Shown in pieces: positions 5,579-64,000 of a DNA stretch of 64,000 nucleotides; the stretch's first letter is position 1, and every line of letters begins with the position of its first letter. Under the pieces are notes generated by a model, which was not told where the DNA came from, made no database searches, and worked only from the letters and a program-made list of their open reading frames with translations. This DNA comes from Polytrichum commune. Lineage: Eukaryota; Streptophyta; Polytrichopsida; Polytrichales; Polytrichaceae. The DNA is taken from positions 27,329,501 through 27,393,500 of the forward strand of contig OX485805.1 of NCBI GenBank assembly GCA_950295325.1. Direction: 5' to 3'. The position numbers were made by a program, and so were the translations under genes.

Positions 5579-8500
5579 ATGGATTCCTCACGCTCATCAT
5601 CTGACGTGGAGATGAGTAATGACGAGATGGACACCCAGGACGAAGGGGACAGGAGGGACGGCGATGAAGAGATGACGGAAGAAATGACAGACCGGCAGCC
5701 TGATTTCTCTGCTCAAGAAATTGATGTGGAAGTTGAAGAAGTCACAGTAACCGAAGTTGAAGAAGTTACAGAAACGCTGGAAATTGCCATGGTAGAGGAG
5801 AATACAAATGATCAAGAGGATGTTGACTTTCCAGATCCAGGCAGCATTGCAGGTCATAGTTATGCAGAAGGAAAGGAGTTGGAGGCTCTTAAAGAAGAGC
5901 CAGGGTCAGATACCCAACTTATTCCAGAAATAGGTCCAAGCTTGCAGGCAGCGAAAGTAGACATGGACGCATTGAATCCAGCAGGTGCTGATGATGTCAG
6001 TGGTCATATGAATAGAACAGTTGGACGGCAAAGGTCCAAGTTGGCCCGAGGAAGGGATCTGGGGACTACGATTGAGCGGGATGTAACTGAAGTCGTAGCT
6101 GATCTGGAAGTATCGGAAGATGCTGTAGAGGGCGGTGCTTATGTACAGGGATGTAATTCTGGTGACAACGAGGGTGTAGCTCTGAATGGTCACAATGAAA
6201 AGGTTATTGAGGAGAATAGCGATCACTTTCCAACTACACCTGGAAACGAACAAGCCACAAATGACAGGGGGACGGGTGGACACCGTCATTCTGTACCACC
6301 GACTAGGAATGGGGATGCAAACCTAGAGGAAAGCCATTTACATGGAGGTAGAGAAACATCTTTTGGCGTTCAGGGTCATGAAGCAAGTGCATCACATTGC
6401 AATTCTGGGTTGAAAGAGAATACCTCAAGTGGGGATGGACTGGAGCCTAACAGGGAAGGAAGTAGTCCAGATGGCAATGAACACATTGCACCACTTGACT
6501 CTGCACAGATCCCCCCAACTGGTGCCCAGGCGGATCTTGGGTCAGCGTCCACCTCTGTATCTTTATTCACTGATGCAATGCAAGCTCAATTGCGAGCTCA
6601 GATTTATGTGTTGTCAGCCTTGCGGTAAGGGTGCCCGACTAGTTCTCTCATTTTCAGGTTGTGTGTTATAACTTCCAAACTAAAAGATTAAAATTTTGTC
6701 ATCTCTTTCACAAATCTTACAGTTGAATTTCTTATTATCCTTGTAAAGCAGTTGAGTATGTTAGATTGACCGTGATCTTATCTTATCTTGTGAGCATGCA
6801 TTGCAACTAGGAATATCTGATGCTCACTGCAGTCAATATATCACATGTTCAGTAAGTACACTATCCATTAGTACTGATTTATCTGTTGTACCATTGCAGT
6901 AAGGGTAAAAAACCAAGCAAGGGCATTGTGGCGACTGCTTGTCCAAAGAATGTTGAAGGTACACTTCAATACATGCAATTTTGCATTTGTTTCTATTTAG
7001 AGTTCTTGTTGATGCATGCATATGAAGGGAATATGCATGCCGTGGAAAAGTGCATTATCAGTAAGATTCACAGTTTCACACGTGTATCTTGCTTTTCCCG
7101 ATATCATGAGCCGTATTCATGGGCGTTTTGAGCATGTACTTACCTCTGTTGTACACACTAAGAAGCTTGCAAAGAAGTGTTTTGACATCCATGCATTATC
7201 AATAAAGAAAGAAACTCCGAGCACAAATTTGGCCTCACAGATCTAATTATGGAGTGCTGACTTCAGTTGTTTTGTAATTGTTTGTGATGTTCAAGCTTGA
7301 TTGTTGAACTAAGTCTTGATGCAGTGCCACTACTTTATGTCTTCGTTCTGTCTAAACTGGCACAATACCTAGCAGCTGGCAGGTGTGATGTTCATCAGGA
7401 GCTACTCTCTGAATTTCAGCACAGGTCTTTCCATCCGAATTTTCGGACCTCTTTCACTGGGGCACTGAGTCCTCAGGCTTGGCTTTGAGAACTTTGTCCA
7501 AAGTTCTCATCGCAAGACCCCTAGGATGGTATTGCCGCAAGTAATAGAAGGTTTTTGAATACTTCAAAGGAGGCATTGAGTTCTGGCACCTTACAAACTT
7601 GCACTGTCATGTCAGGAAGTGCAGAGCCCCTATTACCTGAAATGGGAAATCTGAAGAATAGTGACACCCAAGCACAACAAAAAGGCACTGGCCCTTCAGG
7701 AGATCTTGGAAGAGCATCTGATGATGCAGTGGCAGTTGAGCCAAACCAGAGTTTGGCACATCAGAACGCCTCTCAGGCTGCTGACAGTCAAATTCAGGAT
7801 GAAACAGATAGGCAGTTGGAATTGGCACAGTCTACAGCGCAAGATGCAATGGCGACTGCTACCTCAGCCCTTGCACAGAGCCATATGGCTTGGGCTCGCA
7901 TCCAATCGCATAATCCTTCAGAAGCAGGAACTACAAGGGAAGCCCAAATAGCTTCTGTAGCTGCCACTGTTGCGGCTGCTGCTTCAGTCGCAAAGGCTGC
8001 TGTTGAGGCAGCCAAAGCTATTGCAGAGATATCCATTGATGCTTTGATGCAAGCTGGAGCTTATGGAGGAACACAGCTTAGGTTAAAGAATGGCCAGGAT
8101 CTATTTCAGGTAGCTTACATCACTTTTGAAACGACGCTTCGCATGGTGTTGGAAGTACGATATAGGAAGATTAACCTTTGAGGCTTATCGCTGGGTGTAG
8201 TAGTGAGAATTTGCATTTATAATGGATGGTGTTTACATGGGTTTGGGTAGGCAACATAGAGAATATTTAGTAACTGGAGCCATGGTAGAGGTGACTTCTT
8301 CATACATTCTTATTGCGTTTCTGACATTCTAATTGCTCATCTTAGCCAAATGCAGAATAAGAATAATTCACGAAAAGTGGTGTGTTGTTAGTATTTTCTA
8401 AAAGGGAAGACAGACGCCTGACACTAACCACATGCAGACTGCAAATGGCAACCAACCTGCTCCACGTGGAAGGCCCAGAAAGAAGCCGGCCTCCAATCAG

Positions 8501-11500
8501 AAAACTGGTATGCTGGATGCTGTTGTACAAGCTGCTGGGATGGCAGCTGAAGCTGCAGCACAGGCAGGGGCAGTCTTGGCCAAAGCAAATCCACTAATGC
8601 AAGCAACTGGAATGGAGGGATTCTGGGCAAAATCAGCTCACGTTGAAGAACCTCATGAAAGGACACAAGGCATTGGATCAAAGAAAGGAAAAGCGTCCAT
8701 TGGTAAGAGAACTGAAGGGACGTTCAAGAGGTTCAAGGGTCAGAGGGGAGCTTCACCTGCTGCAGCATCAACCAAAATCTCCAAGGGTGCAAGTCATAGA
8801 ATGGAGGGTCTTTCTGGAAAAGGCAAACAAACACCAGTTAAAAAGAAGGAAGCAGCTGGAAAGAAGGAAGGATCTGGAAAGAAGCAAGGATCTGGAAAGA
8901 AGGAAGGATCTGGAAAGAAGGAAGGATCTGGAAAGAAGGAAGGATCTGGAAAGAAGGAAGGATCTGGAAAGAAGGAAGGATCTGGAAAGAAGGAAGGATC
9001 TGGAAAGAAGGAAGGATCTGGAAAGAAGGAAGCATCAGGAAAGAAGGAAGCATCAGGAAAGAAGCACGCATCTGGACAGAAGGACACACCTGGAAAGAAG
9101 CAAGTGGGAAGGAAGAGAAAGGTTGCTATCCAGCAGAAGGAAAGTAATGTGTCTTCAGGGAAGCGCAAGAGTGTGGAGGCACGACTAAATGCCAATGAGC
9201 CTCCAGCTTCTACAGACACAAACAACAGATCAGACTCCATGGCATTGGGGTCAGTTGTGGAGGTCCGTATATCTGGTTGAATCTGACACTTGTGAGACTG
9301 CAATGCTTCCAGCTCTTGTTCATAATGATGTATTACTGCATTGAGCATTCCACTTTCTTCTCACAAAATGAGGATTTTATGCAGGTCATGTCTGCAGATG
9401 AAGGTCTGCGAGGTGGCTGGTTTACTGGGAAGGCTTTGAAGGTGACACAGTCAGAAGCTTACGTGATGTATGATGAACTCCTTACAGACGATGGTGGGTT
9501 TGCACTGACTCTCACTCAGATGTACAGAGTTTGGATGATCATGACTAGTAGTGGAAAGTCCTAGTGCTTTTTCTGGTGTTGATCTGCAGGCACAGTACAC
9601 ACTGGATTTCCCATTATCTGGGAATGAACCAAGGTTTTGGCACCTTCCAATTTTCCCAGAATCTTTTGTGTTGTCTTAGGGCCCTTTTACACTAGAGCTC
9701 GAGTTGAGAGCTGGAACTTGCAATTTCTGGGAGTTTGATACTTGGACTTGACAAGCTCAAGTGCAAGAGTCTCATCCAAAGCTCAACTGTTGAGAGCTTG
9801 ATGACAGTTGAGATCTTGACCAATCATCAAGCTCTCAATGGTTTAAGCAAGTGTAAAGTGGCTATGCTCAAAGTGAGATCTTAAGGGGGGAATGATACTA
9901 AACAAAGGAGCATTCATGACAAGCCAAAGAATGCTTGAATGCCCATTGGCTTGGGACCCACAAAATGGAGAGCTTGAACTCATGAAGTAGCATAGGATTT
10001 TGACTGAGAGCTTTGTTGTAGTCATTCCATATGGGTTCCATATGGGTTCCATCAAGGCGCCATCTGAGCATTGTAAGCCTGGTAAAAAGTTCAAGCTCTC
10101 AAGTTGAAAGCTCAAGTGCAATGCGGATTTGAGTGAACAACAGGGCCAATGAGAAGGCTCCTTCCTTTGAGCTCTCAGCCTCTAGGGTAAAGGGGTCCTA
10201 ATCCCATTGGCCCTGCCTGACGCACATTGGATGCAACAGCTTAGCATACAGTGGAAAATTGCATTTACGATTACTTTACCATGATTGGGCAGTTTGGCAT
10301 GTACCCTACTTATCGGTAATACTCAAAAAACACTACAGCTTTTTAGACATTAGATTAGAATGTGATTCTTACATTTATTTCAGACAAAAGTAACCATGTT
10401 TGTCATTAATGGATGGGATCAAGATGATGTGGGCCTTAAAGTGAGAGTTTGTAAACCTAGTGTGCATCAACATTTTTGTATTTCTGTTGCAAGGAGTTGT
10501 TGCTCAATCTTCCTCCTAGTAGAAGCACAACTGCTTTCCTTGTTTGGTGAGAATATTACTTGTAGTTTAAGCTCCAGATTATTATGTTTGGTTCTTTTTG
10601 CAGCTTCTGTGGTCCAGATAATGTGAAGGTAGTTTCTGTCTTGAATTTAGGTAATAGGGCTGTCAGCTCACACATCTATAGATCTTTTATTAGGCTCCCT
10701 GGTGGTTGTACCTAGGTTTACCTTGTTACCTTATTTCCTCTTTGATTGGTCTATTTCAGATTTGTAACTTGCACTAGTCTGTAGAAAGAATCAATTGGTT
10801 TTCCTTAGTCATTACTAATTTGAGTATGCTGTCTGGATGTAGGTGCCTCCAATCTTTGTGAGTGGTTTCCCTATAAGGCACTAGAGAATGGCCCAGGTGC
10901 TAGAAGGCAGGTAAGGCCTGTGCATCCCTACAGCTTGGCTAAAGAAGCTGGTTCCAAAAAACGAAGACGAGTAGCATTGGGTTCTCAAACTTGGAATGAA
11001 GGTGATCGCGTGGATGCCTTTGTCCAGGATGGGTAAGTTTCTCATCTGCATTCTCAGACATATTTAGATAGTGCAGGAATGTGGATTGAAAGTTAGTAGA
11101 GGCCTATTACTCTGCATGGAATCTAGGAAGGTAGAGATGGGATCTTGAATATAAGGGCAGGTCCACTTATTGCAACTCTCCTTAGCTACACCAGATATTT
11201 ATACTGCAGATGAAGGATAATTTATTTGGTTGCATTGATCACCATGAAACTGCACTCGAAGGTCTTCATGTGGTGATTGCAACGTAGCCCGGTATCACAA
11301 GGTTGTGCTTTCTGTTAGCGGTGTAAAGAGTTTTCTTGTTTCACATTATTCAAAGAAGCCTATTTTGTTTTGCCTTACTGAATGATACTATGGTTCACAT
11401 GTTGTATTGACATTTGACACCAGCTGGTGGGAGGGAGTTATAGTGGAGCTAAATGATCTGGATGAAAGCAAAGTCACTGTCTATTTTCCAGGTCAGACAC

Positions 11501-20900: not shown

Positions 20901-21828
20901 TCTTGAATCAAGTGAGCATATCTAATTGATATCAGATTTATCGACGGATAACTCTATCAGGAAGAAAATAAGTTTGTGGAGCTGAATAATTTCCTGTTGT
21001 CTTCCCTCAAGAAATATGTACGGAGGTGTCTAAGTTGCGACTCTCGGACTCCTTGCTCCTTGACCTGCCTTTGGTGTTTGTAGGACGATGTCCTAGTTGA
21101 CCTTGATACTCTCGACTATGAACTTCCAATTCACCAACAACCGATAAAAAGAACTAAGAAAAGGGAATTGTTAAATCGACCACGTCGTTTGTTGAAACGA
21201 TCACATAGACACGTCGTGTGGTCACACGACTTGTCAAAATTCGATTTTTCATCGCACACGAAGAAGAGCAAGGTATCAACTCTGTGTTAGAATCGATAAA
21301 CTCGGTCAATTTGGATGACGAGTCATAACCTAATGAACACCTTACATATTGATTGTGGTCGTTTTAATTAACCAGGGTGCGATCGATTTAACGATCCCCA
21401 TCAAATATCATGGATGTGGTTAGTTCCATGGCTTGTAACGAGGGTGAGATTACTTACCCTCCTCGGAGTGCCTCAAGGAGAATGCCGATGCCAAGGTAGA
21501 CGCTGAGGCAGCAGAGGATGGCATTGTGCATGACGATAATTCGGTGAAGCCATATCGGTTCGGGGACGGTGGGAGTGATGCCTGAATTTCTGATGTGAGA
21601 TTGCCATTTGCTCACAACGAAGAGGTAAGAGAGTATGGTGAGGATGACGTAAGTGGGGCTCCGCACGAAGGCGAAGTTTGCTGTCACGGGACTCGGCTCT
21701 CGCATGTCGAGCCCGAAGAGGAAGCCGATGAGAGCGATGAGGATCGAGTCGAGGCTCCATGGGTTTGTGGAGGTGGCTAAGGGTTTATGGATGGTGGAAG
21801 TGTTGGTAATACTTCTTTTCGCCGGCAT
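18000..21828 (-). pseudogene. PUFA elongase (ELO family), partial or disrupted
   Basis: ELO enzymes catalyse the condensation step of fatty-acid elongation in the ER membrane. Exon 1 (21828-21458, 123 codons plus 2 nt, donor GTAAGT) starts at ATG and holds hydrophobic segments with the RSPTYVILTILSYLF and VMHNAILCCLSVYLGIG patterns of moss Delta6 elongases. Exon 2 (to 18336) carries MEIFDSFLMLMK, then TRQIQSLHLYHHSSIAF with the diagnostic histidine box HxYHH. Exon 3 (18117-18000) reads AAMNAWLHAAMYFYFLLATT and LKYLWWGK. Exon 2 to 3 splices in phase. The 5' edge of exon 2 is a problem: no AG acceptor is visible between an in-frame TGA (18482-18480) and the conserved EIFDS, so the gene may be broken or use an unusual site. 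C-terminal exons were not found. The presence of this enzyme points to a non-seed plant. It may be a pseudogene or an incompletely resolved gene. Confidence 0.8.
18483..21457. other. Large intron of the elongase gene
   Basis: About 3 kb separates elongase exons 1 and 2. It is AT-rich and has no recognisable coding domain. It contains a short ATCACAACC microsatellite near 19937-19963 and diffuse repeat-like text. One missing elongase exon (the segment between the N-terminal membrane helices and the EIFDS motif) should lie here, but I could not find it. Confidence 0.45.
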
Positions 21829-23832: not shown

Positions 23833-23932
23833 ACATGAAAAAAATAGGGCCTATATTTCAATTTGCCTCGGCTAATCAAATTGTATTGATTAGCCGAGGC
23901 AAATTGAAATATAGGCCCTATTTTTTTCATGT
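23833..23932. repeat. Perfect 47-bp hairpin
   Basis: 23833-23879 is an exact reverse complement of 23886-23932, with a 6-nt loop at 23880-23885. A hairpin this long and perfect is either very recent or kept identical by gene conversion. It is preceded by a G15 tract. There is no similarity to the GC-rich hairpins at 58-63 kb. Confidence 0.95.
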
Positions 23933-49066: not shown

Positions 49067-50392
49067 GTCCTAAATTCTAATCTTGACCCTCAATTGGAGT
49101 GCAACTCTATTCACTTAGAATTATTTTTCTAGTCTCGTTGGTCATACATCAATGAGCTTTGGGCGCAACTCATATTGAAAGATTTGATGATTGGTGGAAT
49201 TTGCAAAATTTGATATACGCTGCTTTCTTCAGTGTCGCCATAGCCAAGTTTGCAAGTTTGGTGAGCCAAGGTAAAAGTTTATTGAGCCCTTACCTGTGCC
49301 TAAGATGGTGGAGCTTTGTCTTAAGGTCACCTTTGCCCACCAAACTTGCAAACTTAAGCTTAATTTTGAGAGTAGTCATTGATTTCAAGAGTTGTCCCTT
49401 CTGAAAGTTGTTCTGGTTTAATTTTCTAATGCTAGTGATAAGAAGAATATGTTGTAAGTAGTTATTGGATACCTTAAATCTCGCACATCAAGTGATTTGC
49501 CTTCCAGTGTTGTAAGCTTTTTGGATGTGATTTTCTTGTCTGTTGATCGTTGCAGTTGTTATGGGATGCTCACAAATCTGAAAAGGGACCTGAAGCCAAA
49601 GGAGCAATCATTGAGCCCTTTTTTTGAAAGTGCTGCTCGTTGTAAATGACCAGAGTGAGCAACTTAATCAAGCAAAGACACTTATACTATATCTTAGTCC
49701 TTAGTCAATTATTTCTCTATGGTCTTGAGTGGGCCGGACTGTGCTATTACCTCTGATAACCTCTGTCATATGTGCAGCTTCTTTTAGAGCAAGCTGCATT
49801 GCGCTTAAACCAATTATCAAGAATTGGCATGACTGGTGTCAAGAACACGATATTAAACATTATGGGACTTTAGGGTAATTTTGGGACTTTTGTGATGTAA
49901 GTCGGGAACTCATTGAGAACCCATTGGGAGCTTATTGGGAACTCATAGGGAACATGTTGGGCAGAACACATGCGACACAAATACTGTTTGATTCCAATGG
50001 TTGTTTGCATTAGCCATTTGGGTATCCAATGACATGCAGCCACTGGGGACCTTAGTGATGGGTCCCCACTAAGTGCCATAATGGTGAGACTCATAATCAT
50101 AAATAAATTGTCATACAATATGGGAATTGCACCCACAAATGTCCTTCAATGAAACACTGGATCTATGCTGGGAGATATGTAAATTTTTCATGTTGTGCTA
50201 AGTATAAAATCTTGCAAATTGGCTGATCTGGAAATACTCTACATTTGTACATTGGCATTCGTAAAGTATGAATTACTGATTGGCCAAGGACTCAAAGATG
50301 TTCTCCAAATGAGGCTTGATTTCTAAAGATTGTTCCCACGTAACTTTCTCCATGAACACCAAGTCTGGGATCCTGCTCTCGATATATGCCAA
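49067..50392. other. Intergenic DNA; possible last captured exon
   Basis: A coding-like stretch after a GTTGCAG near 49557 (LLWDAHKSEKGPEAKGAIIE) may be another exon of the preceding fragment, but it ends in a frameshift or stop. 49880-49950 contains short repeats of GGGAACTCATNGNGAAC. 50165-50392 is likely the 3' UTR of the minus-strand gene. Nothing else is recognised. Confidence 0.4.
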
Positions 50393-53300
50393 TTATTGAG
50401 AGTCAAACCCAATATTTTGTGCCGCAAGCACCACCATCTCAAGGTTGTATATGCGATCGCTGAGCAACAGACATTCCGTATATCTCTCTAGAGCAGTGGT
50501 CATGGTCGTTTGTAGTCTCATAAACTTACCCGTAACTTCATCAATCTCCGCAGCTAAGTAGTTAAACTCCTCATGAATTGTACGCTCTCCCATTGGGGGC
50601 TCCATCAGGCCTCTTTCCTCATCATGACGTTGTGCCAAATGACATGATTCCAACATCGCTGTGATTGGGAGGTTCTCCTCCCTATTGTCATAGACATGGT
50701 TCACCATTGCTTCTGAATGAGGATGGAGTAGGTCATCTAAATGAGGTAGGATTTCTTGAGTGGCTTCCCACATAGTGTTCTCTATCAAGTACAAATCTGG
50801 TACACGTTGTTGGAGGAACTCCACTTGTGGGATGGTGAGCCCTATATCAATAGTTGCATGCACCAATCTCCCAAGCATGTGTGCATCCATTCCAACCAAG
50901 CGGCATCCTTGATATCTATCTAGCGCAGTGGTCATATTCGTTTGTAGTTGCATGAACCGTTCCGTGCAGACATCAATTTCATTGGCTAAGTTGATAAACT
51001 CGTCGTCCATACTTCTCATTTCCATTGTAGGGTCTAACGGGCGATCCGGATCAACTGTTTGCAATCTCCGGATCCACTCCCCAAATCCAGTTGGCCGGGG
51101 AGCTGGGGAGGGGGCGGGACGCCCATCCACGACTTCCTGATTTGTACGAACACATGTGATTAATGCAGCAACATATAAGGGCAGATTAACAGGGTCCACA
51201 CATCTGTAGCTACCGTGGACGTGTTTAGGCAAGACATACATGCTTTATACATTGCGACCAGTCATGCCAGTGTTTGGGCAAGACACGTAGGTTCCATACA
51301 TTGGGAGCTTCCGTGTGAAGTATTGTTGCAAGACAAACAGGAACCATACATTGCGACCAGTCATCGAAGTGGTTGGGCAAGACAAATAGGTTCCATACAT
51401 TGGGAGCTTCCGTGTGAAGTATTGTTGCAAGACAAACAGGAACCATACATTGGGAGCAATCATGCACTTGCGATTGAAGGACAAATAAGTTCCATACATT
51501 GGGAGCATGGTTGACATCTGTACCGACTTGGCGGAAAACAATGCATTGGGTAGTGGAAGTGTTTGGCCACCTTGTATATATCAAGTATTCCATTAACAAC
51601 TGGGTACAATATGTATTCCCGCACACATTTGACACATGATGGTTCAACTTCTAGCATATTTAGGGTACAAACGGAAGATTTGTCCATCACAGGGAAGGCT
51701 CCCCTTTAGGGCATATAAGGTGAGGCTAACCATTGGCGGACCGGGTTGAGGGGGTGTGATGTTGGCAAGGTCAGCCAATCCAGCCTGCAATAGATGGACA
51801 CCTCTTGAATTAGGGCCTCGTGACTCGATAAGAGCAATTTGATGCTCGCGGGTAGCAAGGGGTCGCGGGGGGGGGGGGGTCATATTGACGTCAGCAACCT
51901 GCGCGTTCAAAACAATCGTTGGTACTGTGGTAGTGACGGGTTGTGGGTCATATGTTTTGCCAATGCTCGCCAATCCAGCACGCAACATTTGAACACCCCT
52001 TGAATTAGGGCCCCTTGATTCAATAAGAGAAATTTGGTACTCGCGTGTAGAGGTGGAGCGTACGATGGGCAACGTATCAGAAGGGGGTGCAGACTCTTCC
52101 ACTGCGGGTTCCATGTTGAGATCAACACCCTGCACGGTGACAAAGGGACAAGCAGGCTCTGATTTACTAATTTACATTTTTGTCGCCATACATACATATG
52201 ATTTGCAACTGAGCCTGATTTTATGCCCCACACACACTGGTGCAGCTGAAGCACAATTCCATACACATTCACGAAAATTTATACAAATGAGCCTCAATTG
52301 GAAATGAAATGTGTGTTTGATATTACAATAACATGTACACAATAACATTGTCAAAGTGTGAAATAACTTAAAATTACCATAGGGGATCCATGAGTCCATT
52401 GCGAGTGGTGCAAGTGGTCTTCAGAGTGACAGGTCTTCACTGGTGGCATCTCCAATGTCTTGCTCGATTGTGAAATGTGTTTCGCCGCGATTAGACTGCG
52501 TGAATGCCCCGATGTCGGGCAGACAAAAGCAGAGGGCGTGGAACTGGAAGGTGTGTACCCAACAGGAGGAAACTGGAGATACCATAAAATACAATGTTAC
52601 ATGCCACACAATACTACTTATTTATTTCCTACTTCTAGTGGAGCGAGTTCTAGAGGTTGCAACTCAAGGTCCATTGAACCTACTTATTTAGGTACTATTT
52701 CCATTGGCTTGAGTTCTACGGGTTGCAACTCGGGTCCATTGAACTTGTTGGATTGCATAACTGCCATCTTGACTGCATCGTTATGCGGTATAGGTTGTTG
52801 CCCAAATCTATGTCTGACCACAAAATCGCGTGTGTCAGACATTGGTGAGTAGTACAATGATTCAAAGAAAGGGAGGAGAACCTTCATCATGTCTGCGTCA
52901 TGGACCCGATTATTTGTGAACGAATTCGGAAATATACCACACTCGTCCGGATTGCAAACAGATTTGTAAGGGCAATCATCTACTAGAATGGTGTTTGACT
53001 CTGTAGCTGTAATCCTCCCAGAATCGAAAGATATAGGTGGCCACCAAAACTTCCTGACCAAACTCTTCAAAAACAATGGAGCTGTTGGCTTCAAAGGGTT
53101 CGTCACGACATTGCCCCACATGTCCTTGAATGTGGTGCAATCCTCTTGGCCAAGTACTAAAGCTGGTTTTGGCAGCCCAGCAAATAGATACTCCACCACA
53201 AGGTCGACAGTTGATTTTTTCATGGATGACCTGTGAGGCCAAACCCCCCACCCTTAAGCGTCCGTAGTCCGAGTAGTGGGTTTGGGCTCACATTCCTCCG

Positions 53301-56300
53301 CGGTATTGGATTTGGACTTGGATGAGTCCATAGTGCAAGGTTCACCCTTCAAGTGGTCTTGGATTTAACTTTGGTCTTTGCTTCCTTTGTCTTGCCATCG
53401 CGAGAGTGCTCCACATTCTCCATTAAGTTGTGCACGTGGTTTATTTTTAAAGAGAGGATGCAAGTGTTAAAAAAAACACTATTCTCTATAGTCAATCTCA
53501 AATACATTTACTTGTGAAAGCCACACATAACACTAACTAGCATAATGTAACTAACTACTTGTCTATGAGCTAATTAGGTAGGCTATCTACTAAGCTCCTT
53601 CATGAACCCATCTCTTTACTTTCTAATTACATAAACCTAGCTCCTTCATAAACCCAGCTCCTTCATAAACCCAGCTCCTTAGCTTCTAACTAAACAAACC
53701 CAGCTCCTTCATAAACCCAGCTCCTTCATAAACCCAGCTCCTTCATAAACCCACAACTTTGTAGTTGTAATCCCCAACTACCTCACTAATTATTCAAGCC
53801 CTTAACTAATCTTCCTACCTAATTTCCCTAATTCTACTAACAACCCCTTTCTAATCACACAATTCTTCTCTAATCCTAAAATCCTAAAATCCTAGAGAGG
53901 AGAGGGGGAGAGAGAATTTCCTAACTTCACTAAGACTAACTAATCCACACAAGTATATTTTTGCACTCATCACAACATCAAGTGCTCAACTCTTAAACAT
54001 GGAACTTGCAACCACGTGTATTCAAAACATGAACTTAAAGTACCACAAATTGGAATCATGAATTAACTTTAAAATCCTTCACGTCAACACTAATTCTACC
54101 AAGAGGTCAAGCCCTCTTCAAGGCTAACAAGCCTTGGCTCTCAAACTAAAAACTAAGCACACACATGTGCTCCAATATGGCTTCCCACACCCACACTTAT
54201 AACTCGTGGGGTGCCTTGGAGCACAAAGGAAAGAGAGGATGAGTGAGGGAAGAATGAGGGATTATATAGTAAGCTTGAGGGGGTGAGCACCCTCAAGGCT
54301 CACGATAAGCCCTTGAGATTTCCTCCTACTTAGTAGGCGCCAATCCTATCTTCTAAGCCTTCCTCCCTCAAATGATCAACAAGGATCCTAATTCGAACAT
54401 TTAACTAGCCTTGGCTTTCTACCTACCACACTTTACCAAACTTGGGATGCTTCAACCCAAACTTAGCCTCCTTCGCTTTCCGCCGCCATAACTTTCTCCC
54501 CTTACTTTCCCAAATCGTCGCTCACCACTTAATTCAAACCACGATGCTTAACTCGTGATTTGATTGGTGCTTTGAGAATTTGCTTATCCTCCACCTTGCA
54601 TTCTTCCTTGGGCCTTCCCCATTAAGTGGCCATGATGAGGTGGTCCACTTGTGCGCTCCATGTGATCCTCCATTCATCCCAATTCGAATGCACTTGCCTC
54701 TTGAGTCACTTTGGTTGTCTCCATCCATTTGTACTAGCCTACTCACTAACTACTCAATCCAAGTTCTCCTTACCTATCCTCATTCACTCAAATCCTTCCG
54801 AAGGTAAAAACACAATAACAACTCACATCCTAGCCTCTTACAACATGGTACTTCTAAGACTAACATTTCACTCTTTTTATATTTTTGTGAAGTAACATGC
54901 TACTTCAAAGTGCATCAACTAACGTTTCAAGGGTCTAAGACTAAATGTGGGCACCCTTTTGGGCTCACATGACCATATGCAAAGATGAAACATTGTGGAC
55001 ATCCGGTACCAAAACACCTTGTATCCCAGTCTAGGGAGGACAACCTTGGGCCCTACCAAGGCAGGAAGTTTGTCCGCCGCACGATCGTGCATTACCCAAG
55101 TGGGGACAGTCCCCATATTGCTGTGACGGGGGGTACAGTGGCAAAATATGCCGTTTAAATCGAACACCACAATGAACCTCTTGGCGGGCAATGCAGCAGG
55201 CGCCTACCGACAAGAATCCAATGTGAGCTTCTGAAATTTGCTAAAATGAACTAAACAAAGAATGACCTTGCAAATCTACGCATGATAGAACAGACCATTA
55301 ATGACTTGATTGTGCTGATTTGTAATCCACGTGTGGTATGCGAGACGTATGGGCGAACTCGAACGTGCATGGATTTATGGGCCCAGACCAATACCTCGTA
55401 GTGTATCGGATTGAATTCCCATCGAGCAGAGTACCCTAAGGAAGGATCTTCAGGATACTTAGACATTAGTCTTTTAGCACACGCAATTCCCATCTCGCTT
55501 GTGAATACGCAGATAGGCCTATTGACCTTTGGGTAGGTGTCATCGTAAACAAAGAGCTTATCATAGACAATGTGTTTTGGTATAGGCGCATCCACAGGCG
55601 TTATCGAGTGTTGTGGACCCTGAACCCAAAACTACGCGACGATAAATTAAAGAGAAGTGAAAACGTTGAAATAGGAATATGTAAATCAAAACTAATAACC
55701 TTGAGTCCGGGATGGAGGAAACTTACATTAACATGACTAGGCACCACTTTGGCAAGAGCGGCACGCCGTTTGTCTTCATCTTGATTGTTGTGCATCGTCC
55801 GGAAATCGTGGACATCGGTGTTGTCAAATACGGGGTGGGGAGCCTTGTCACCGCGTGGCCAACGTGTCAAATACCTCTTCACTGCTTGTGGGGCATTTTT
55901 AGTGGCTTCTGGACTGTGGCAGTCCAACGGGATGATATTGACGGCACTCGACGATGCCTGCACCTTCGGAGGAATCTCTGTATTACCAACCACTACGGCG
56001 AGATTTGATACGTTGTCGACGACAGCTAGTGTTGGCTGGACAGACTCCAGCTCGGAGGGCCTAAGTGGAGGCTCAGTACAATGTGCCACTGGGAGGACAC
56101 AGTCCGTCCCACCAGTTGGTAAGATTTTCCTCCGCGGTGATCGTATTGGCGATAATGGACTATCACTCATAGTGATGATTGATGGCACATCTTGACTGGG
56201 AGAGGGGTCTAAGTCTGTAGGTGGAGCACGCTTCTGCACCGTTGCTGTCGTTGCGTTTAGGGGACCCATAACGGGCGAGAGTGGCATGGGATCGTCGTTG

Positions 56301-56404
56301 ATAGTAGGTGACGTTCGAGGAGACAATGTTGCAGAGTGTGGTGGATCCACTTGTTCTGGGTTCTGCAAGGAAGCCTGTGAATTGCAAGACATCATTAAAG
56401 ACAC
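50393..56404 (-). CDS. FCP1/NIF-type HAD phosphatase-like multi-exon gene
   Basis: Exons read 5' to 3' on the minus strand: 56404-55700 (Pro/Ser-rich, no fold), 55619-about 55267 (HYEVLVWAHKSMHVRVRPYV, unknown), 55203-54974, 53230-52684, 52572-52440, 52131-about 51731, and 51203-50393. Exons 55203-54974 and 53230-52684 form a CTD-phosphatase-like HAD domain: RFIVVFDLNGIFCHC, YRMSTMFHLCIW, LGQEDC, then NTILVDDCPYKSVCNP. The intron between them (54973-53231) splices exactly in phase. The nucleophile Asp (codon 55161) is kept, but the second catalytic Asp of DxD is Asn, so activity is doubtful. The next exons carry two internal duplications (IESRGPNSRGV twice; EFxxLAxEID...MTTAL twice). No stop breaks these exons, but 55267 to 55203 does not join in phase as drawn. 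It may be one transcript with the ParB/methyltransferase exons upstream, since phases there also agree (56673 to 56404). Confidence 0.65.
51251..51508. repeat. ~100-bp tandem repeat in an intron
   Basis: Units begin at about 51251 and 51350 (ATTGCGACCAGTCAT) and, diverged, at about 51450. They share CATACATTGGGAGC and TGCAAGACAAACAGGAACC. The array lies between the exons 52131-51731 and 51203-50393 and has open frames only by chance. Confidence 0.85.
51867..51879 (+). repeat. G13 run in a coding exon
   Basis: On the minus strand this is C13 and encodes consecutive Pro (MTPPPPRPL) within the 52131-51731 exon. A length error here would shift the frame, so the downstream reading depends on this count. 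Confidence 0.8.
53641..53754. repeat. 17-bp minisatellite in a phosphatase-gene intron
   Basis: CTCCTTCATAAACCCAG repeats in perfect copies at 53641, 53658, 53704, 53721 and 53738, with a diverged piece between. It lies in the 1.74-kb intron 54973-53231. The remainder of that intron is AT-rich with no recognised ORF. Confidence 0.9.
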
Positions 56405-57931
56405 CTGAATGCAAAATAGATACTACATGTCCAAGCCAAAAGATTATACTTTATTTATAATAAATTGTGGCACATATGGCCTCATCTTCCCACAAGGGAT
56501 GAATTCTACACTATCCTATCTAAATGTATTGAAGAAATAGGCGTCCTAGTCGACAAGAGGCTTCAAGATGCCGCGCCGTCTCCGACATGGATCAAACATC
56601 CAGGTGGAGATTCAGTCACTTGAACAGGGTCAAAAGAAAGTAATTAAAATGAGACGGGGTTTGAATACTTACATTGGCCTCTTCGTCGTCGGGGGTGTCC
56701 TTGGTTGCAGGTTCAGCTTCCATATGCATGGCTCCATCCACGCGATCCACCTCCATTCCTTGGACGCCAACCTCCACTTGTGTGATATCCCTCTCGATCT
56801 CGGCAGCTCCGACGGCGACTTCCACTGTAGGGGCTGGTTGCGGCACCGGCTAAGGGGTCTGTTGCCGAGCAAAGCTCATTGCTTCTTGGAGCAAGCCCGA
56901 TAGCATGGTGGGCAGTGTTCTGTTCATGATGCCCACGATTTTCTCCTCCACCCACGTTTCTGTAATCGCAGGCTCTTGAGACTGTGTACTATGTCTCTTC
57001 GACTGCCGGTCTTTGTGCTTCCCTCGCTTGGAAGCCTTGGGTTTCCGTGGACTAGGGGGTGGGATCTCTTCGCCACTCTCATGGCGATGTGGTGGCGACG
57101 GTGGTCCTGAGGTGGTTGGAAGATCGGGTGCGGGTGTGCCCACAACGTATTCGGTTGTGTTTTCTTCGACAGGGGCCTCGCGGTCGGCCTCTTCCCCTTC
57201 AGTAGGGTCTTCCGCTATGGCCTCATTAGGGTCCTCCTCGTGGACCTCCTCAATTTCCTCCTCCACGCCCTCGTGTTCGTCCCCGCCATCATCATCGTCA
57301 TCGTGGGTGTCCGCCTGTTCAACCTCCTGATGTGGTTCCTCTAGCGGGTCATCCGCCAGCGAGGTGACATGATCAGGATCCTCAGCAAAGTCGAGCACCC
57401 TGGCCTGCAAAGGGGAAGGTGAATGACGAAAATCGTGCGGTCGCCTTTGTGAGTGAATGGAATCGCTATCCGATTGCGATTCCAACTGCTGCTCCTCCCC
57501 TCTGCTAGCAGCCTCGTCTGTATCCTGCTCGCTAGGCGCCTCTTTGTCGTCGTCGTCATGTTCAGGCTCTTCGTAGTCGTCGCCCTCTGAGTCGTGTCTA
57601 TCAATGTCCATGGCATCGATATCCACACCGGGTGAAGGATCTCGGGGGGCATCCTCCAACAACAGTGTTGGGGTTGCATGTTGTTGACGATGAGGTTGCG
57701 AAGCTTTGCCGTGCGCAGCGTCATCCTCCTCTTCATCTTGGAAGTCTACTGCCCGAAGGGGTCAAATGTGTTCAATCTTATCGGGCAGCGTGTGCACAAA
57801 GCAAGAGTCCATATACGAAAACACATGTTGGTCGTTCATCTGCCCACATGAACAATATAAATGTTATGTAACTTGACCCATTTAAAACAAGAACTTGAAC
57901 CCTTAAACTTGAACCCTCTAAAACTTAAAGT

Positions 57932-58031
57932 CCTCCCCACTTAAAATCCTCCCTGCAGTGTACAAGGGAGGTTCCTCTCGGCCGAGAGGAACCTCCCTTG
58001 TATACTGCAGGGAAGATTTTAAGTGGGGAGG
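57932..58031. repeat. Intronic hairpin H1, ~50-bp arms
   Basis: The arms 57932-57981 and 57982-58031 are reverse complements with only a few mismatches and no loop, centred on CTCTCGG|CCGAGAG. The core GGGAGGTTCCTCTCGG is shared with the other hairpins in 59.6-62.8 kb, but the outer arm (TTAAAATCCTCCCTGCAGTG) is unique to this one. It lies in the intron 58074-57840 of the ParB/methyltransferase gene. Confidence 0.95.
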
Positions 58032-59588
58032 GAGGCAGTGAGGGACTAGGTGTAGGGTGTTGCAGAGAACATACCAATGCGGCAGCAATTGGCTTCAAGC
58101 CGCTGAATAAGTTAATCACGACTCCTCCCATGCTTCCAAGGAAGCTGAAAAACGACAGATAAACCTCCATTCGCAACTCCCCCCGGGTCACTTCGTATGA
58201 AAGTTCGGACCACTCCTTGGGGTTCACATTGTAACGCCGAGCTTCAGGCGGCATCATTGGACATCGGAAGATTTTGTGGCCCGGGAGGATGCTCGGGCAA
58301 GTAAGGAAGTCCACGTAAATCATCGGTGACTCCCTCTTGCAGTCCACTTCCTTGTAGAATGGATAATTCTCGGCGTGACAAGGTAAATACACCGACGGGA
58401 TATTCAGGAACGTCTGCGGATGCTTACGAATTATGGCTGAGATGAATTCCTCAGCTGCGTTGTGGTTTCGCAAGTCGGAGACAATCATCCAAGCTGGGAT
58501 GGTCTTGAGTCCGGGAGACCATATTGGATCCGTAAAATACTTCACCAAGGACTCCACGACCGAAGAGGACACTGGTTGATCGACACAACCTGGAATGAAT
58601 CTAAAGTCCATGACCCCCCCTGTTATGGTGAACTTCGACATCCAATCAAGATCACGCTTATCTTGCACAGGGATCAGTAACTTCCTTTTGAGAGCGTTGT
58701 ACTCGACATATCGTGTAATCACCTGTCCGTCACTCTCTTCAAGGTCCGTATGATACCACTCATTCAACAAACGCAGACATGCTGGGGGCGGATCCAAGAA
58801 CTTGTTATTGGGCATCCGCTTCTTGTTCAGCCAACTATCAGTAGCAACCTGGTAAAGCTTCACCCACTTGGCCTTCGAGATACAGTGGTCCTTCTTGAAT
58901 TTAGACCAAACGGATCGGTTGAGACACTCAGCACCCTCCGCGTCCTTTCCCCAAATGCCAAGATCTTTTGGATCGCATGCTGACAATTCTTGCAGCAGTA
59001 TGTTTTTCCACTTTCTAAAGATACACCACGACTTCAAGAGTGACACATTAGAGTTCTTTGTTGACCTGAAAGTCACTCTAGGAACCTCTTCGCCTGGCCT
59101 CACTTCGAGTATTCGTTTTGCACATAAAAGATAGTCAGGCTTAGTCAAACCGGCCAAGACCCTGAAAGTTTCTCGAGTCAATGGTTTGCAGACATAAGGC
59201 TTCTCCTCGAATGTGGTTCCCGATTTCTTCTTCTCATGACGCGCTCGTTGTCTCTGTTGCGCTTCGAGGTATTCATCCAAATAGGTTGATCATGGCTTGT
59301 CGGGATTCATGAGGGTCCCCTTCTCATGCGCAATGAAGATCTTCTTCCACAACCTGGCAGTCTCATCGTCGGCCATGATGATTGCGAGCTCAGCATTAAG
59401 GTCCGCGTGGGTGATACCTCTCGCAATGGCAGTGAACGAAGCCTCCATTCTTGTTGTGAAATTCTGCAATGTGGAAGTGTTAGAATACAAACATAAGGGA
59501 AATAGACAGGAGAGATCGAGTGGGAAAGAAATCAACCATGGCATCATGGTAGCTAGCTATTTAGGTAGTCATGTCTTTTTAGGTATGT

Positions 59589-59806
59589 ATCCCTCCCATG
59601 AAGTCCTCAATGGAGGTTCCTCTCGGCCGAGAGGAACCTCCCTTGAGGACTTCATGGGAGGGATCCCTTGAGCACTTCATGGAATCCCTCCCTTGAGAAA
59701 TACATGGGAGGTTCCTCGCGGCTGCGAGGAACCTCCCATGATCACTGCAAGGGAGGCTCCCTTGAGAAATATATGGGAGGTTCCTCTCGGCCGAGAGGAA
59801 CCTCCC
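59589..59806. repeat. Three intronic hairpins H2-H4
   Basis: H2 is 59589-59626/59627-59664, with 38-bp arms whose outer part reads ATCCCTCCCATGAAGTCC. H3 is 59703-59719/59724-59740, with 17-bp arms and a GGCT loop (CTCGC variant core). H4 is 59775-59790/59791-59806, with 16-bp arms. All share the GGGAGGTTCCTC core with H1. CCCTTGAGAAATACATGGGAG text recurs before H3 and H4, so this stretch also grew by duplication. They lie in the intron 59881-59464. Confidence 0.95.
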
Positions 59807-61439
59807 TTAAACACTACATGGGAGTGAGGGAGTTTGAAGGGAGGGAGTGAGGAAGTGCATTGTATGAATATGCATACTTACTTTCCATGTCTCCATCATT
59901 TTGGGGTCGAGCGTTGCCTCAGCTTTGTTAACCCTTTACTTCTGGGGCCTGCCTAGTTTCACCCACACTCTACAACAATACATAATCTGGGTTGTCCAAG
60001 TAGGGGTGAATTTGTTAAATGAATTGGAGTTATTTAGGGTATAAGATAGGCGGACTGTCATGCTTGGATCCTCGCTCCAGACAATTGTACAAGGCCACGT
60101 CTTCAATTTATCTTTCAATGTTTGTTCTGTGTCTTTGTGCCCTATAATTTCCTTTGATGCAGCCACGCTGTGTTGACCGTTGATAATGAGAAAATTTCCA
60201 TTCTTGATGTCGTCCCAAGTCATCCCTTCTCTCCATCTTTCACCCTTATTGAGCTTCGGCATTAGGCAAAGATTGTGATGAGGCCATGCCGGTGGAGTCT
60301 GTATAAGGTAGTTCTTCATGAGTGCTACCCTGGTTTCATCCAGTGGGCGAGTAACCTGGTAAGATTTAGCTTGCATCATTTTCTTGAAGTAGACATGGAA
60401 AACTTTCTCCACAACGAAAGGGTAAAGGTGTCCAAATAATTGGACAAACTTTTTCCGGTCCGCTGCAGCTGCCTCCAAACTTGGTTCCTCTCCATGTGCG
60501 ATAACTCTCCCCTTCTCTGCTGCAGTGAGCACTAGGGGAGTTTCATCTGTGTCATCCGTCGCCTTCATCCTCTTGGCCTTGGTCTTCCTGGGTTCATCAG
60601 TTGTCCTCTTCGTGGCCGGGGGTTTCCTTGGGCCCGTTGTCTCTTCGGGATTGTTGTCAAGAATTGGCGTTGGGTTGAGGGTTCTGGCCAACGGACCAAT
60701 GTCACCTGAAACATTCTTAGACTTCTTAGAAGTCTCTCGTGTTCCTCCAACAGCTTCCTCTCCGGGTCTCTGTTTCTTTTGTGTCTTCTTATTTCCTCCA
60801 TCATCATTCCTAGAAGCGACAAGAATCTCCGCTTGTTTCTTCTTTTGCTTCTTTAGCGCCTCCTTCTCGGACGCCTCTCTTGCATTGATATCACCTATTG
60901 CTTCAAGTATAAAATTTATGGCCTTCTTGGAAATGCCAGAACCCATCACTCTCTCCATATCTTCTTTGTCCGCAGTAGGGAGCGTCGAGATTGATTGCGT
61001 GAACGGCTCCATATGGAATCTGTGTCTCTTGCAATCGATGGACAAAATTCGTGTTTCAAGTCCTTCGACGACCGACACGTTTAGTTTGTCGCTATCACTG
61101 ATAGAAGCCGAGGTAATTGCATTTCCCGGGTTTGGAATCCAGCTTTTGTCCACCAAGTACGCGAATGTTAATTTTAGAGGCGATTCATTGTCTTTTCTAT
61201 GTACTTGCAGCGACCAGTGTCGCAAGTGGGTGTCCCTTAATTCCCAGTGGACACCCTTCGGCCCCACTTGGATATCCCCAACAAAATCGGTCCATAAAAC
61301 TTCTCTCTCCATGTCACCTGCACGGATCATTGAACTGGTTAGTGTGTGGACTGCATGAAAGAGAGTGTGAAGTCTCAAGAGTGTGAAGAGTGTGAAAGAG
61401 AACCTCAAGAGTGGTGTGATAGTGTTTCTACATTGCGAA

Positions 61440-62655
61440 GGGGAGGAGGATCCTCTCGCCCGCGAGGAACCCCCTCCCCCGCTCACAGTGAGCCCTCGTG
61501 AGGTTGATAACCTCACAAGGGCTCACTGTGAGCAGGGGAGGTGGTTCCTCGCGGGCGAGAGGATCCTCCTCCCCCCTCATTAGTGATCCCTTGAGGGGTT
61601 ATCAACCTCACAGACCAAGGGCTCAGTGATGAGCGGGGGAGGAGGTTCCTCGCGGGCGAGAGGATCCTCCTCCCCCCTCATCACTGAGCCATTGTGAATC
61701 TCATGGACCTCACTGAGCCATTGTGAGTCTCATGGACCTCACAGAGCCAAGGCTCAGTGATGAGCGGGGGAGGAGGTTCCTCGCAGGCGAGAGGATCCTC
61801 CTCCCCCCTCATCACTGAGCCATTGTGAGTCTCATGGACCTCACAGAGCCAGGGCTTAATGATGAGCGGGGGAGGAGGTTCCTCTCGCCCGCGAGGAACC
61901 TCCTCCCCCTCATCACTGAGCCATTGTGAGTCTCATGGACCTCACTGAGCCATTATGAGTCTCATGGACCTCACAGAGCCAGGGCTCAGTGATGAAGGGG
62001 GAGGAGGTTCCTCGCGGGCGAGAGGATCCTCCTCCCCCGTCATCACTGAGCCATTGTGAATCTCATGGACCTCACAGAGCCAAGGCTCAGTGATGAGGGG
62101 GAGGAGGTTCCTCGCGGGCGAGAGGATCCTCCTCCCCCCTCATCACTGAGCCATTGTGAGTCTCATGGACCTCACAGAGCCAGGGCTCAGTGATGAGCGG
62201 GGGAGGAGGTTCCTCGTGGGCGAGAGGAACCTCCTCCCCCGCTCATCACTGAACCATTGTGAGTCTCATGGACCTCACAGAGCCAGGGCTCAGTGATGAG
62301 GGGGGAGGAAGTTCCTCGCGGGCGAGAGGATCCTCCTCCCCCCTCATCACTGAGCCATTGTGAGTCTCATGGACCTCACAGAGCCAGGGCTCAGTGATGA
62401 GGGGGAGGAGGTTCCTCGCGGGCGAGAGGATCCTCCTCCCCCCTCATCACGGAGCCATTGTGAGTCTCATGGACCTCACAGAGCCAGGGCTCAGTGATGA
62501 GGGGGAGGAGGTTCCTCGCGGGCGAGAGGATCCTCCTCCCCCCTCATCACTGAGCCATTGTGAGTCTCATGGACCTCACAGAGCCAGGGCTCAGTGATGA
62601 GGGGGGAGGAGGTTCCTCGCGGGCGAGAGGAACCTCCTCCCCCGCTCATCACTGA
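61440..62655. repeat. Tandem hairpin array, about 12 units of ~100 bp
   Basis: Two palindromic modules alternate. Module A is a GC-rich core, GAGGTTCCTCGCGGGCGAGA followed by GGATCCTCC. Module B is a 50-60-bp hairpin with CTCATCACTGAGCC at one end and GGCTCAGTGATGAG at the other. A-cores occur near 61447, 61543, 61645, 61776, 61878, 62008, 62108, 62208, 62309, 62411, 62513 and 62611. The first and fifth are in the opposite orientation to most (CTCGCCCGCGAGG). The first two A-cores flank a long inverted repeat, 61440-61505 against 61509-61576. The array lies just upstream of the ParB/methyltransferase start at 61330, where a promoter or leader would be. ORFs reading through it are by-products. 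Confidence 0.95.
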
Positions 62656-62667
62656 ACCCTTGTGAGC

Positions 62668-62731
62668 GTAGGGTAAACCCCTAACAGAACTGCTTAGTCA
62701 ACTAAGCAGTTCTGTTAGGGGTTTACCCTAC
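62668..62731. repeat. Perfect 31-bp palindrome at the array edge
   Basis: 62668-62698 is the exact reverse complement of 62701-62731 with a 2-nt centre (CA). The arm starts GTAGGGTAAACCCCTAACAG and shares no sequence with the A or B modules. It immediately follows the last array unit. Confidence 0.97.
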
Positions 62732-62756
62732 TTGAACGAGTGTTCACTGGTCGCCT

Positions 62757-62796
62757 GGGAGGAGGTTCCTCTCGACCGAGAGGAACCTCCTCCTCC
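62757..62796. repeat. Last copy of the GC-rich core hairpin
   Basis: GGGAGGAGGTTCCTCTCG, a 2-nt centre (AC), then CGAGAGGAACCTCCTCC. It is the same core as H1-H4 and the array A modules, and no further copy was seen to the right. Confidence 0.9.
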
Positions 62797-62959
62797 AAAG
62801 CTACTTGTGTACGGATGGGAATTCCGTACAATTCGGACCACTCATTACATTCATCCATTGATTTGATGTGATTCTATGTTTATGTTAATGTTTTACATTG
62901 GATTTAACAAGGGCATGAATATAAGTATAAGCATGAGCATAAACAAGCATGAGCATAAA

Positions 62960-63500
62960 CATAACACATTCAATCAGATAACACATTCAATCAGATAACA
63001 CATTCAACCAGATTGAACATTCAATCAGATAACACATTCAATCAGATAACACATTCAATCAGATAACACATTCAACCAGATAACACATTCAACCAGATAA
63101 CACATTCAACCAGATTGAACATTCAACCAGATAACACATTCAACCAGATTGAACATTCAATCAGATAACACATTCAATCAGATAACACATTCAATCAGAT
63201 AACACATTCAACCAGATAACACATTCAACCAGATTGAACATTCAATCAGATAACACATTCAACCAGATTGAACACAAACACACATTCAAACACATTCAAA
63301 CAAACTAAACGAGGTTCTGAGTTTCAACACAAACACACACATTCAACACAAACATACATTCAACACAAGCAGAATCAATGTAGGATTCACCACAAGCACA
63401 TTCAAACACATTCAAACACATTCATACTGAAGATAAACCTAACACATTCAAACACATTGATACACATTCAACACAACCACATTCATACTGAAGATAAACC
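62960..63500 (+). repeat. 17-bp minisatellite grading into an 11-bp repeat
   Basis: ACACATTCAATCAGATA and its variant with CAACCAGA repeat in 17-bp steps from about 62963 to 63276, with ACACA alternating with TTGAACA junctions. From 63277 the array becomes shorter CACATTCAAA and TTCAACACAAACA repeats to about 63500. It is non-coding. Confidence 0.9.
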
Positions 63501-64000
63501 TAACACATTGAGTTGAGAGTTACCACAAGTTGCTGGAAGGAGGGCTGAGGATTGTGGGAGACTTGGCTATGGAACTCAGCACCCCAACCTAGAGAGAAAA
63601 GGCGAACAATCTGGCGTAGAGAAAAGTCGAACTGGAGTGCGACCAGGAGTGCGACCAGGTGTAGAGAAAAGTCGAACAATCTTGTTTAGGATGTACAATT
63701 CAATCTCAGAATCTGAGAGCGTGGAAGGTGTGAGTGGAACTTGGAAGGAAGAGAGGAGAAGAAGAGAGGAGGTGCCGACACAAATGAGGAGTCGCCCGAC
63801 ATTCGAATGGACGCCACCCGGGCGGGTACGGCTACTGGCCGGAATCGACGGTTCAGATTAAGCCGTCATCATGGATGGCCGGGATTAACTCACCTTCCCA
63901 TGATGACAAGTGTACCGACTAGTAACAACTGCCTATGGGACATGTGTTGATTGAGTACCTTTTCCCCGGTTGCTCTTTCAACTAATTTTATTTTGGCCGT
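63501..64000. other. GC-richer segment after the minisatellites
   Basis: No gene is recognised. GGAGTGCGACCAG is directly repeated near 63630-63660 and TAGAGAAAAGTCGAAC recurs at 63617 and 63661. An open plus-strand frame (63637-63861) is Arg/Glu-rich with no known domain. It could be an exon or promoter of a gene that continues beyond the window, or the distal promoter of the minus-strand gene. Confidence 0.35.

Follow-up and report, generated by a model that had tools for sequence, protein, structure and literature searches.

The locus studied here raises the question of why a chain of palindromes lies directly upstream of a gene in the genome of Polytrichum commune. We analysed a window of 64,000 nucleotides (assembly GCA_950295325.1, contig OX485805.1, positions 27,329,501 to 27,393,500), in which an earlier note had described about twelve units of ~100 bp, a hairpin A alternating with a hairpin B. 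In window coordinates, the palindromes and repeats of this region are:

57932-58031, no strand, 100-bp palindrome centred on the core of the array, in a further putative intron
59589-59806, no strand, putative intron-1 palindrome cluster with the same core as the array (59589-59664, 59703-59740 and 59775-59806)
61438-62660, no strand, tandem array of 12 palindromic cores in ~100-bp units (cores at 61438-62637)
62668-62731, no strand, 64-bp palindrome with a 2-nt centre, adjoining the array, which contains TTAGGGGTTTACCC and is without the core motif
62754-62797, no strand, isolated 13th core with the half-sites GGTTCCTCTCG-AC-CGAGAGGAACC
62961-63268, forward strand, 17-bp tandem repeat ATAACACATTCAACCAG in 18 copies, in the non-coding middle of the element

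The number and length of the units held up. The sequence GGGGGAGGAGGTTCCTCGCGGGCGAGAGGATCCTCC is present, with up to 3 mismatches, in 12 copies at 61445-62637 (shuffles expect 0.00), eight of the 11 start-to-start spacings between cores measure 100-102 bp (range 95-131 bp), and Tandem Repeats Finder reported a 100-bp period for the array. The units are near-identical to one another and 2 of the 12 cores are inverted. The B arm CTCATCACTGAGCC is also real, with 20 occurrences at up to 2 mismatches, 10 on each strand, between 61620 and 62658 (0.48 expected). However, since the arms can pair across every core as well as across every spacer, the alternation of A and B is in large part the geometry of tandem palindromes; in a greedy list of non-overlapping palindromes, a strong one over a B centre appears in the first unit only (61440-61574). 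That a single strand could fold into hairpins was borne out by a 300-nt piece of the array, which folded as single-stranded DNA with -129.4 kcal/mol (z = -18). No Rfam family reached its gathering threshold anywhere in the window. The 62668-62731 palindrome beside the array contains telomere-like words.

The array sits inside a giant DNA transposon and is not a satellite. The earlier note mentioned neither this transposon, to which all of these palindromes belong, nor the sites at 57932-58031, 59589-59806 and 62668-62731. The parts of the transposon that define it in the window are:

49844-64000, continuing past the window, no strand, left part of the giant DNA transposon, subfamily A, recognised from copy alignment, 28-bp terminal repeats and TSD
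49844-49871, forward strand, left terminal inverted repeat AACACGATATTAAACATTATGGGACTTT
53232-54969, no strand, nested insertion absent from three other copies, with TG...CA ends and a 5-bp repeat TGACC (by eye)

The window copy reaches its right end at C3:27427903 and measures 48.6 kb including nested inserts, of which the one at 53232-54969 is perhaps a solo LTR. A 4-bp TSD, CAAG, is found on both sides of the window copy. A cleaner copy of 26.35 kb occupies C3:33705648-33731997. Genome-wide, the 28-bp pattern of the terminal inverted repeat (TIR) gave 79 forward and 92 reverse matches, against none for the reversed control, and a perfect 4-bp TSD was present at all 20 end pairs tested, which were paired by hand from the ends listed (100 of 171); 10 of them lie close to genes of subfamily A and 7 close to genes of subfamily B, with 3 others. 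Both TIRs and TSDs, the marks of a cut-and-paste DNA transposon, are thus present. A 261-bp piece of the array had 77 matches on five contigs of the 408-Mb genome.

The middle of the element has features of its own. In the copy at C3:33.7 Mb, ~12.7 kb between two genes (~9.8-22.5 kb) holds no ORF of at least 120 aa, and much of this length is 97-99% identical among copies. A 329-bp imperfect palindrome, ~73% self-complementary, lies in the non-coding middle (window equivalent 70132-70460, locus L005). The sequence of the 53232-54969 insert starts a second time in the window copy, at 73846 onward (L018), a position that falls among the palindromes clustered ahead of the right gene.

The element carries a right gene with a DUF7869 domain (PF25273, E 1.8e-34), an FCP1/NIF-like gene, and a left gene that adjoins the array, whose exon-1 ATG is at 61312, the array beginning ~130 bp upstream. 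The coding parts within the window are:

52687-53253, reverse strand, part of the FCP1/NIF-type phosphatase-like gene
55604-57761, reverse strand, probable further left-gene exons, acidic/low-complexity ORFs without a family
57928-59289, reverse strand, left gene exon 2, a 454-aa open stretch
59939-61312, reverse strand, left gene exon 1, of which 458 aa were used, with an [ND]GQH[ST] motif and no Pfam family

In exon 2, the frame of another locus (L009) is open for 89 residues further upstream, where the frame of the window copy is closed. The FCP1/NIF-like phosphatase gene, of which a longer ORF in L015 (6438-7283) matches PF03031 with E 5e-9, was perhaps captured from the host. The two left-gene exon queries found at least 105 and at least 93 matches in the genome, fragments and remote relatives included.

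The left gene had earlier been labelled ParB/methyltransferase, and every homology test of this label was negative: Pfam, NCBIfam, PDB-sequence profiles and a viral-contig scan all failed to support it. Searching the own genome, PF02195 (ParB_N) matched contigs C12 and C23 only, and PF01555 (N6_N4_Mtase) gave five matches, none of them at element loci; hhalign comparisons of left-gene alignments with a 4-row phage/virus-type ParB-methyltransferase alignment gave probabilities of 0.2 % for ParB_N and 0.1 % for the methyltransferase. The NCBIfam DGQHR model reached E 0.58 with the left protein, far below cut-off, and the resemblance to ParB/DGQHR consists of the [ND]GQH[ST] motif only; a motif-I-like NLF(S/G)GLKP was seen by eye. 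Searches of Pfam, NCBIfam and PDB sequences recognised no DNA-binding domain in the left protein, and two single-sequence AlphaFold2 models had a mean pLDDT of 37.

Genes of the named kinds do occur elsewhere in the assembly. Contigs C10, C12 and C23 hold phage/bacterial-type ParB_N and/or N6_N4_Mtase genes, which are probably assembly contamination; relatives of the contaminant-like ParB-methyltransferase were found at no locus in the genome-contig scan and at three in the viral scan. At least two copies of a 577-aa ORF lie on contigs of chromosome size (L088:577-2307, C1:9662150; L087:1342-3072, C4:44111740); this ORF encodes an N6_N4_Mtase domain (E 1.1e-7 for the L088 copy) and is possibly another transposon-borne DNA methyltransferase. 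The L088 gene has no meaningful similarity to either left-gene exon.

The palindromes travel with the left gene, with some exceptions. Their consensus for subfamilies A-D, TTYCWCTCGNNCGAGWGRAA, occurs at 653 places in the genome (reversed control 0). The 50 places listed are all on contig C1; for 45 of them a left-gene match is no more than 20 kb away, for four it is 28 kb away, and one place is isolated. In addition, an array at C2:60977843 has no left-gene match nearby. A widespread satellite unrelated to the gene, with large arrays dispersed independently of the gene family, is not what these 50 of the 653 places show. The two genes of the element also keep company: 57 of 70 DUF7869 matches with at least 76% identity have a left-gene match within 50 kb (13 are without), as have 55 of 66 left-gene matches a DUF7869 match (11 without). 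The DUF7869 gene of the window copy itself is absent among the 150 matches listed.

We then looked at where the palindromes lie in individual copies. The subfamily-A core GAGGTTCCTCTCGGCCGAGAGGAACCTC, with up to 3 mismatches, occurs at 162 places in the genome, of which ~50 were listed, and the reversed control gave none. At a score of at least 15, the 26.35-kb copy contains seven palindromes, against none in three shuffles of the same copy (coordinates of that copy):

6293-6392, 7950-8025, 8040-8075 and 8111-8142, in putative left-gene introns
9867-9912 and 10510-10681, upstream of the left gene
21638-21667, before the right gene

The first long right-gene ORF found in this copy begins near 22.55 kb, and the cluster before the right gene holds additional core sites here and in other copies. 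Palindrome arms reach 172 bp at some sites. Outside the element, positions 1-49843 of the window contain one palindrome at this score, which is unrelated. A long, A+T-rich palindrome without the core lies at 23833-23932 (score 47).

Beyond this copy, we examined 10 further left-gene loci and four inter-gene regions. Nine of the 10 loci, from subfamilies A-D, have palindromes with a score of at least 15 upstream of exon 1 and/or in the following intron; at this score L030 has an intron site only, and L026 and L031 have upstream sites only. The tenth locus, L032, has no palindrome at a score of at least 15 and five at a score of at least 11, a threshold at which five shuffles of L031 gave none. 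The earlier idea of a palindrome chain in promoter or leader position that goes with a gene family was therefore well founded. In subfamily E, the palindromes are likewise upstream of the left gene. In each of the three F regions, palindromes form tandem arrays at a distance of 2-3 kb on the upstream side of the DUF7869 match and pairs ~2 kb upstream of the exon-2 match, and two of these regions have sites ~0.4 kb before the exon-2 match as well. In the D region, sites lie 2.0-2.4 kb upstream of the DUF7869 match, and the listed B sites are placed likewise, so that A, B, D and F all have palindromes 2-4 kb upstream of DUF7869 matches. Altogether, palindrome clusters near the same genes recur in six subfamilies, which we named A-F in this analysis and whose left proteins are down to ~26% identical.

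The placement of the palindromes bears on whether they are simply minisatellites without function, their palindromy having arisen by inverted duplication and concerted evolution. A loose pattern counted 13 cores on the upstream side of the left gene in the window, the array accounting for 12 of them, and four other copies of subfamily A had 2, 6, 7 and 7, indicating that the array gains or loses units. This variation, the near-identity of the units and the presence of inverted ones are all what a minisatellite would give, but a minisatellite would not be expected to keep a similar placement and architecture across six diverged subfamilies. By blastn, the upstream DNA of A has no match to the one C and the one D locus tried, and matches one B locus at 59-86%, mostly in repeats, while intron 1 of A aligns with C and D near its ends only. 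With the palindromes persisting where upstream DNA no longer aligns with the C and D loci tried, we regard functionless minisatellites as very unlikely.

We then compared the palindromes themselves. Their general form is NNTTNNNNNCG-NN-CGNNNNNAANN, i.e., two inverted half-sites of ~11 bp around a 2-bp centre. The main half-site, followed each time by two bases and its mirror image, is GGTTCCTCTCG in A, ACTTCCTCTCG in B, ACTTCCACTCG in C, ACTTTCACTCG in D, ATTTACGAACG in E and GGTTTGGGTCG in F; minor half-sites are GGTTCCACTCG and GGTTCCTCGCG in A, TTTTACGAACG in E and AGTTTGGGTCG in F (9 of 37). Across 23 loci, the window included, 138 perfect 22-bp dyads surround CGNNCG (A 27, B 32, C 6, D 29, E 7 and F 37), and one shuffle of each locus (232,512 bases) contained none. 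Dyad symmetry, the 2-bp centre, the flanking CG and TT/AA at +/-8-9 are common to all six subfamilies: half-site positions 3-4 (TT) and 10-11 (CG) are invariant, and the other seven of the 11 differ among subfamilies, the half-sites being rewritten with the dyad kept. As the perfect-dyad filter enforces symmetry, matched changes among those sites are partly so by construction. A less filtered count, which required no more than the degenerate A-D consensus, found complementary bases at the variable W position in 27 of 27 A, 33 of 33 B, 14 of 17 C and 27 of 27 D sites. Subfamily C is the looser one: of its 17 consensus sites, 6 are perfect over 22 bp and 3 are asymmetric at W. Among all perfect 22-bp dyads around a 2-bp centre, collected without prescribing the inner letters, 138 of 148 have the inner CG. 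The centre itself is variable but not fully free: GC predominates in A and CT/AG in B and F, E has a mixture, and C and D have AT throughout. The two centre bases do not complement each other in 27 of 32 B, 5 of 7 E and 37 of 37 F sites. The array units of the window are imperfect dyads with 1-2 mismatched of the 11 half-site positions, in which the intron sites differ from them.

This architecture allowed us to weigh the idea that the palindromes act as hairpins, either as intron or leader hairpin RNA (siRNA or miRNA precursors) or as extruded cruciforms. The fold is very stable (z -18), in agreement with the earlier hairpin/siRNA reading, and the best evidence for such a role is the long arms at several sites (172 bp), which go beyond the need of a binding site, although they may be by-products of inverted duplication. 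On the other hand, the CG-NN-CG bases beside the centre are invariant even though they could not all pair in so small a loop, and TT/AA at +/-8-9 is fixed in six subfamilies; selection for a hairpin alone predicts neither constraint. We also reason that an siRNA made by the element against itself would be selected against. Since the invariant bases are those that a hairpin would hold in its loop, a hairpin function is less likely than recognition by a protein, and we consider it distinctly unlikely.

A dimer that reads the DNA across a 2-bp spacer would fit these observations, as the bases beside the centre are invariant whereas those of the centre vary and are often asymmetric. The deviation of the window array units from perfect symmetry counts against a tight binding requirement there. 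Sites of 28 bp with a 2-bp centre also bring to mind the crossover sites of a site-specific recombinase of the serine-recombinase type, which are comparable in size and centre, and inverted units are present in the array. However, no recombinase family was found among the element ORFs scanned and each element has many sites, making crossover sites a most improbable explanation.

If a protein of the element binds the palindromes, the rates at which its parts diverge may indicate which one. Compared with A, and with fragments excluded, the left proteins are 74-79% identical in B, 64-68% in C, 57-59% in D, 25-32% in E and 25-27% in F. The corresponding values for the DUF7869 stretch are 89-92% in B, 89-91% in C, 86-87% in D and 68% in F (three loci), with loci assigned to subfamilies by neighbourhood and the whole stretch compared rather than its DNA-binding part apart. 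Of the 28 positions of the A TIR pattern, the B and C ends listed match all but 1-2. Thus, the half-sites change with the left protein (57-79% in B-D) and not with the ends, and DUF7869 keeps 86-92% in B-D. Between A and B, the left-gene exons have dN/dS values of 0.14-0.16 at dS 0.91-1.07, and by this measure the left gene is under constraint between subfamilies; beyond A and B, dS is high or saturated, and within subfamilies dN/dS is 0.12-0.74 at small distances.

These comparisons also bear on the possibility that the palindromes are bound by the transposase, taken to be the DUF7869 protein, and are required in cis for transposition in the manner of subterminal repeats. As this would require, the listed palindromes belong mostly to loci of the element family studied here, and a cluster of them is upstream of the DUF7869 gene. 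Yet the TIRs (A-C) and the DUF7869 domain (A-D), the latter compared without setting its DNA-binding part apart, stay similar while the half-sites change, and ~5-11 kb separate the palindromes of the 26.35-kb copy from its ends. Moreover, the core is missing from L073, a 5.6-kb deletion derivative whose ends and TSD are intact, although the loss may have followed insertion. We therefore think transposase sites unlikely.

We consider it probable that the palindromes are operator-like sites for a dimeric DNA-binding protein that serves the element, probably the product of the left gene, with a putative role like that of the VANC proteins discussed below. The window array would then be the promoter-side cluster among the operator-like sites of one element, which lie upstream of both main genes and within the putative introns of the left gene. 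A sequence-specific dimer is envisaged to read the two half-sites across the 2-bp centre, and the faster-diverging left-gene product is the most likely candidate. By analogy with VANC, binding might keep the regulatory DNA of the element open against host silencing, or might auto-regulate its genes. Protein binding, the identity of the binder and an anti-silencing outcome are all three what we infer from the pattern of sites and proteins. Each subfamily would serve itself alone, its half-site and its protein having changed in step.

It is tempting to speculate, as a tentative extension of this proposal, that in a clade of giant plant-type transposons the palindromes form a self-recognition code, in which a fast-evolving dimeric protein reads a palindrome rewritten in each subfamily and thereby marks its own copies, amounting to an independent invention of the VANC strategy. 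The contacts to CG-NN-CG and TT/AA would be fixed and the outer letters rewritten in every subfamily, and the marking, by way of operator arrays at the two promoters and within introns, could consist in anti-silencing or in methylation of its own, perhaps via the two invariant central CpGs. The six half-sites would in that case be a natural mutational series for protein-DNA co-evolution. Among the titles and abstract starts of the literature searched, we found no description of palindromic target arrays in such transposons.

Several known systems resemble the one described here in part. Foldback and MITE-like palindromic elements share the long inverted repeats, but the cores here are recurring internal parts of one element family. 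In bacterial ParB-parS systems, palindromic sites are clustered near the gene of the binder, as they are here near that of the putative cognate binder; parS, however, is a 16-bp palindrome without a spacer, and ParB has no detectable homology to the left protein. With regard to TSDs, those of MULEs are 8-10 bp long as against 4 bp in this element, and a 4-bp TSD is found in the Sola superfamily, although it is not unique to Sola and other superfamilies may have one too. According to the available text of PMC12477816, Sola1-1_Ec32 of Ectocarpus is a 21.5-kb transposon with a ParB + N4/N6-methyltransferase gene opposite the transposase, and the product of this gene is proposed to bind and modify its own transposon. 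Giant size and an accessory gene encoded opposite the transposase are features of both DNA transposons; in contrast, the left protein here fails the ParB_N and N6_N4_Mtase tests, and palindromic target sites are not mentioned for Sola1-1_Ec32 in that text (PMC12477816). An accessory gene of this kind is found in other algal transposons too, and the ParB/methyltransferase label of the earlier note points to such elements, but in view of the negative homology tests we do not class the left protein as a ParB/methyltransferase. The proposal that some giant transposons carry proteins binding their own DNA would become directly testable if our reading is correct.

It is not settled how a transposon can escape silencing and yet leave the rest of the genome closed; the known answer is VANC in Arabidopsis. 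As far as the available texts describe them, the VANC proteins of VANDAL transposons bind short motifs and cause hypomethylation, and these motifs, which are repeated in tandem both upstream of the transposon genes and inside their introns, differ between related transposons (PMC5735166, PMC10398659). The layout of the palindromes is strikingly similar, but there are differences, as the motif here is a 22-28-bp palindrome with a 2-bp centre and the string 'palindrom' occurs 0 times in the main text of either paper (PMC5735166, PMC10398659), and as the element here has 4-bp TSDs and a DUF7869 gene. If our proposal is true, it would be a second and apparently independent case beside VANC, with a much clearer recognition code, in which six half-sites with fixed and variable positions can be read. 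In both the MULE-type VANDAL elements, as described in these sources, and the element reported here, motif arrays specific to the transposon or subfamily occupy non-coding parts of the transposon, upstream and intronic, units are gained and lost, and the motif differs along with the transposon protein.
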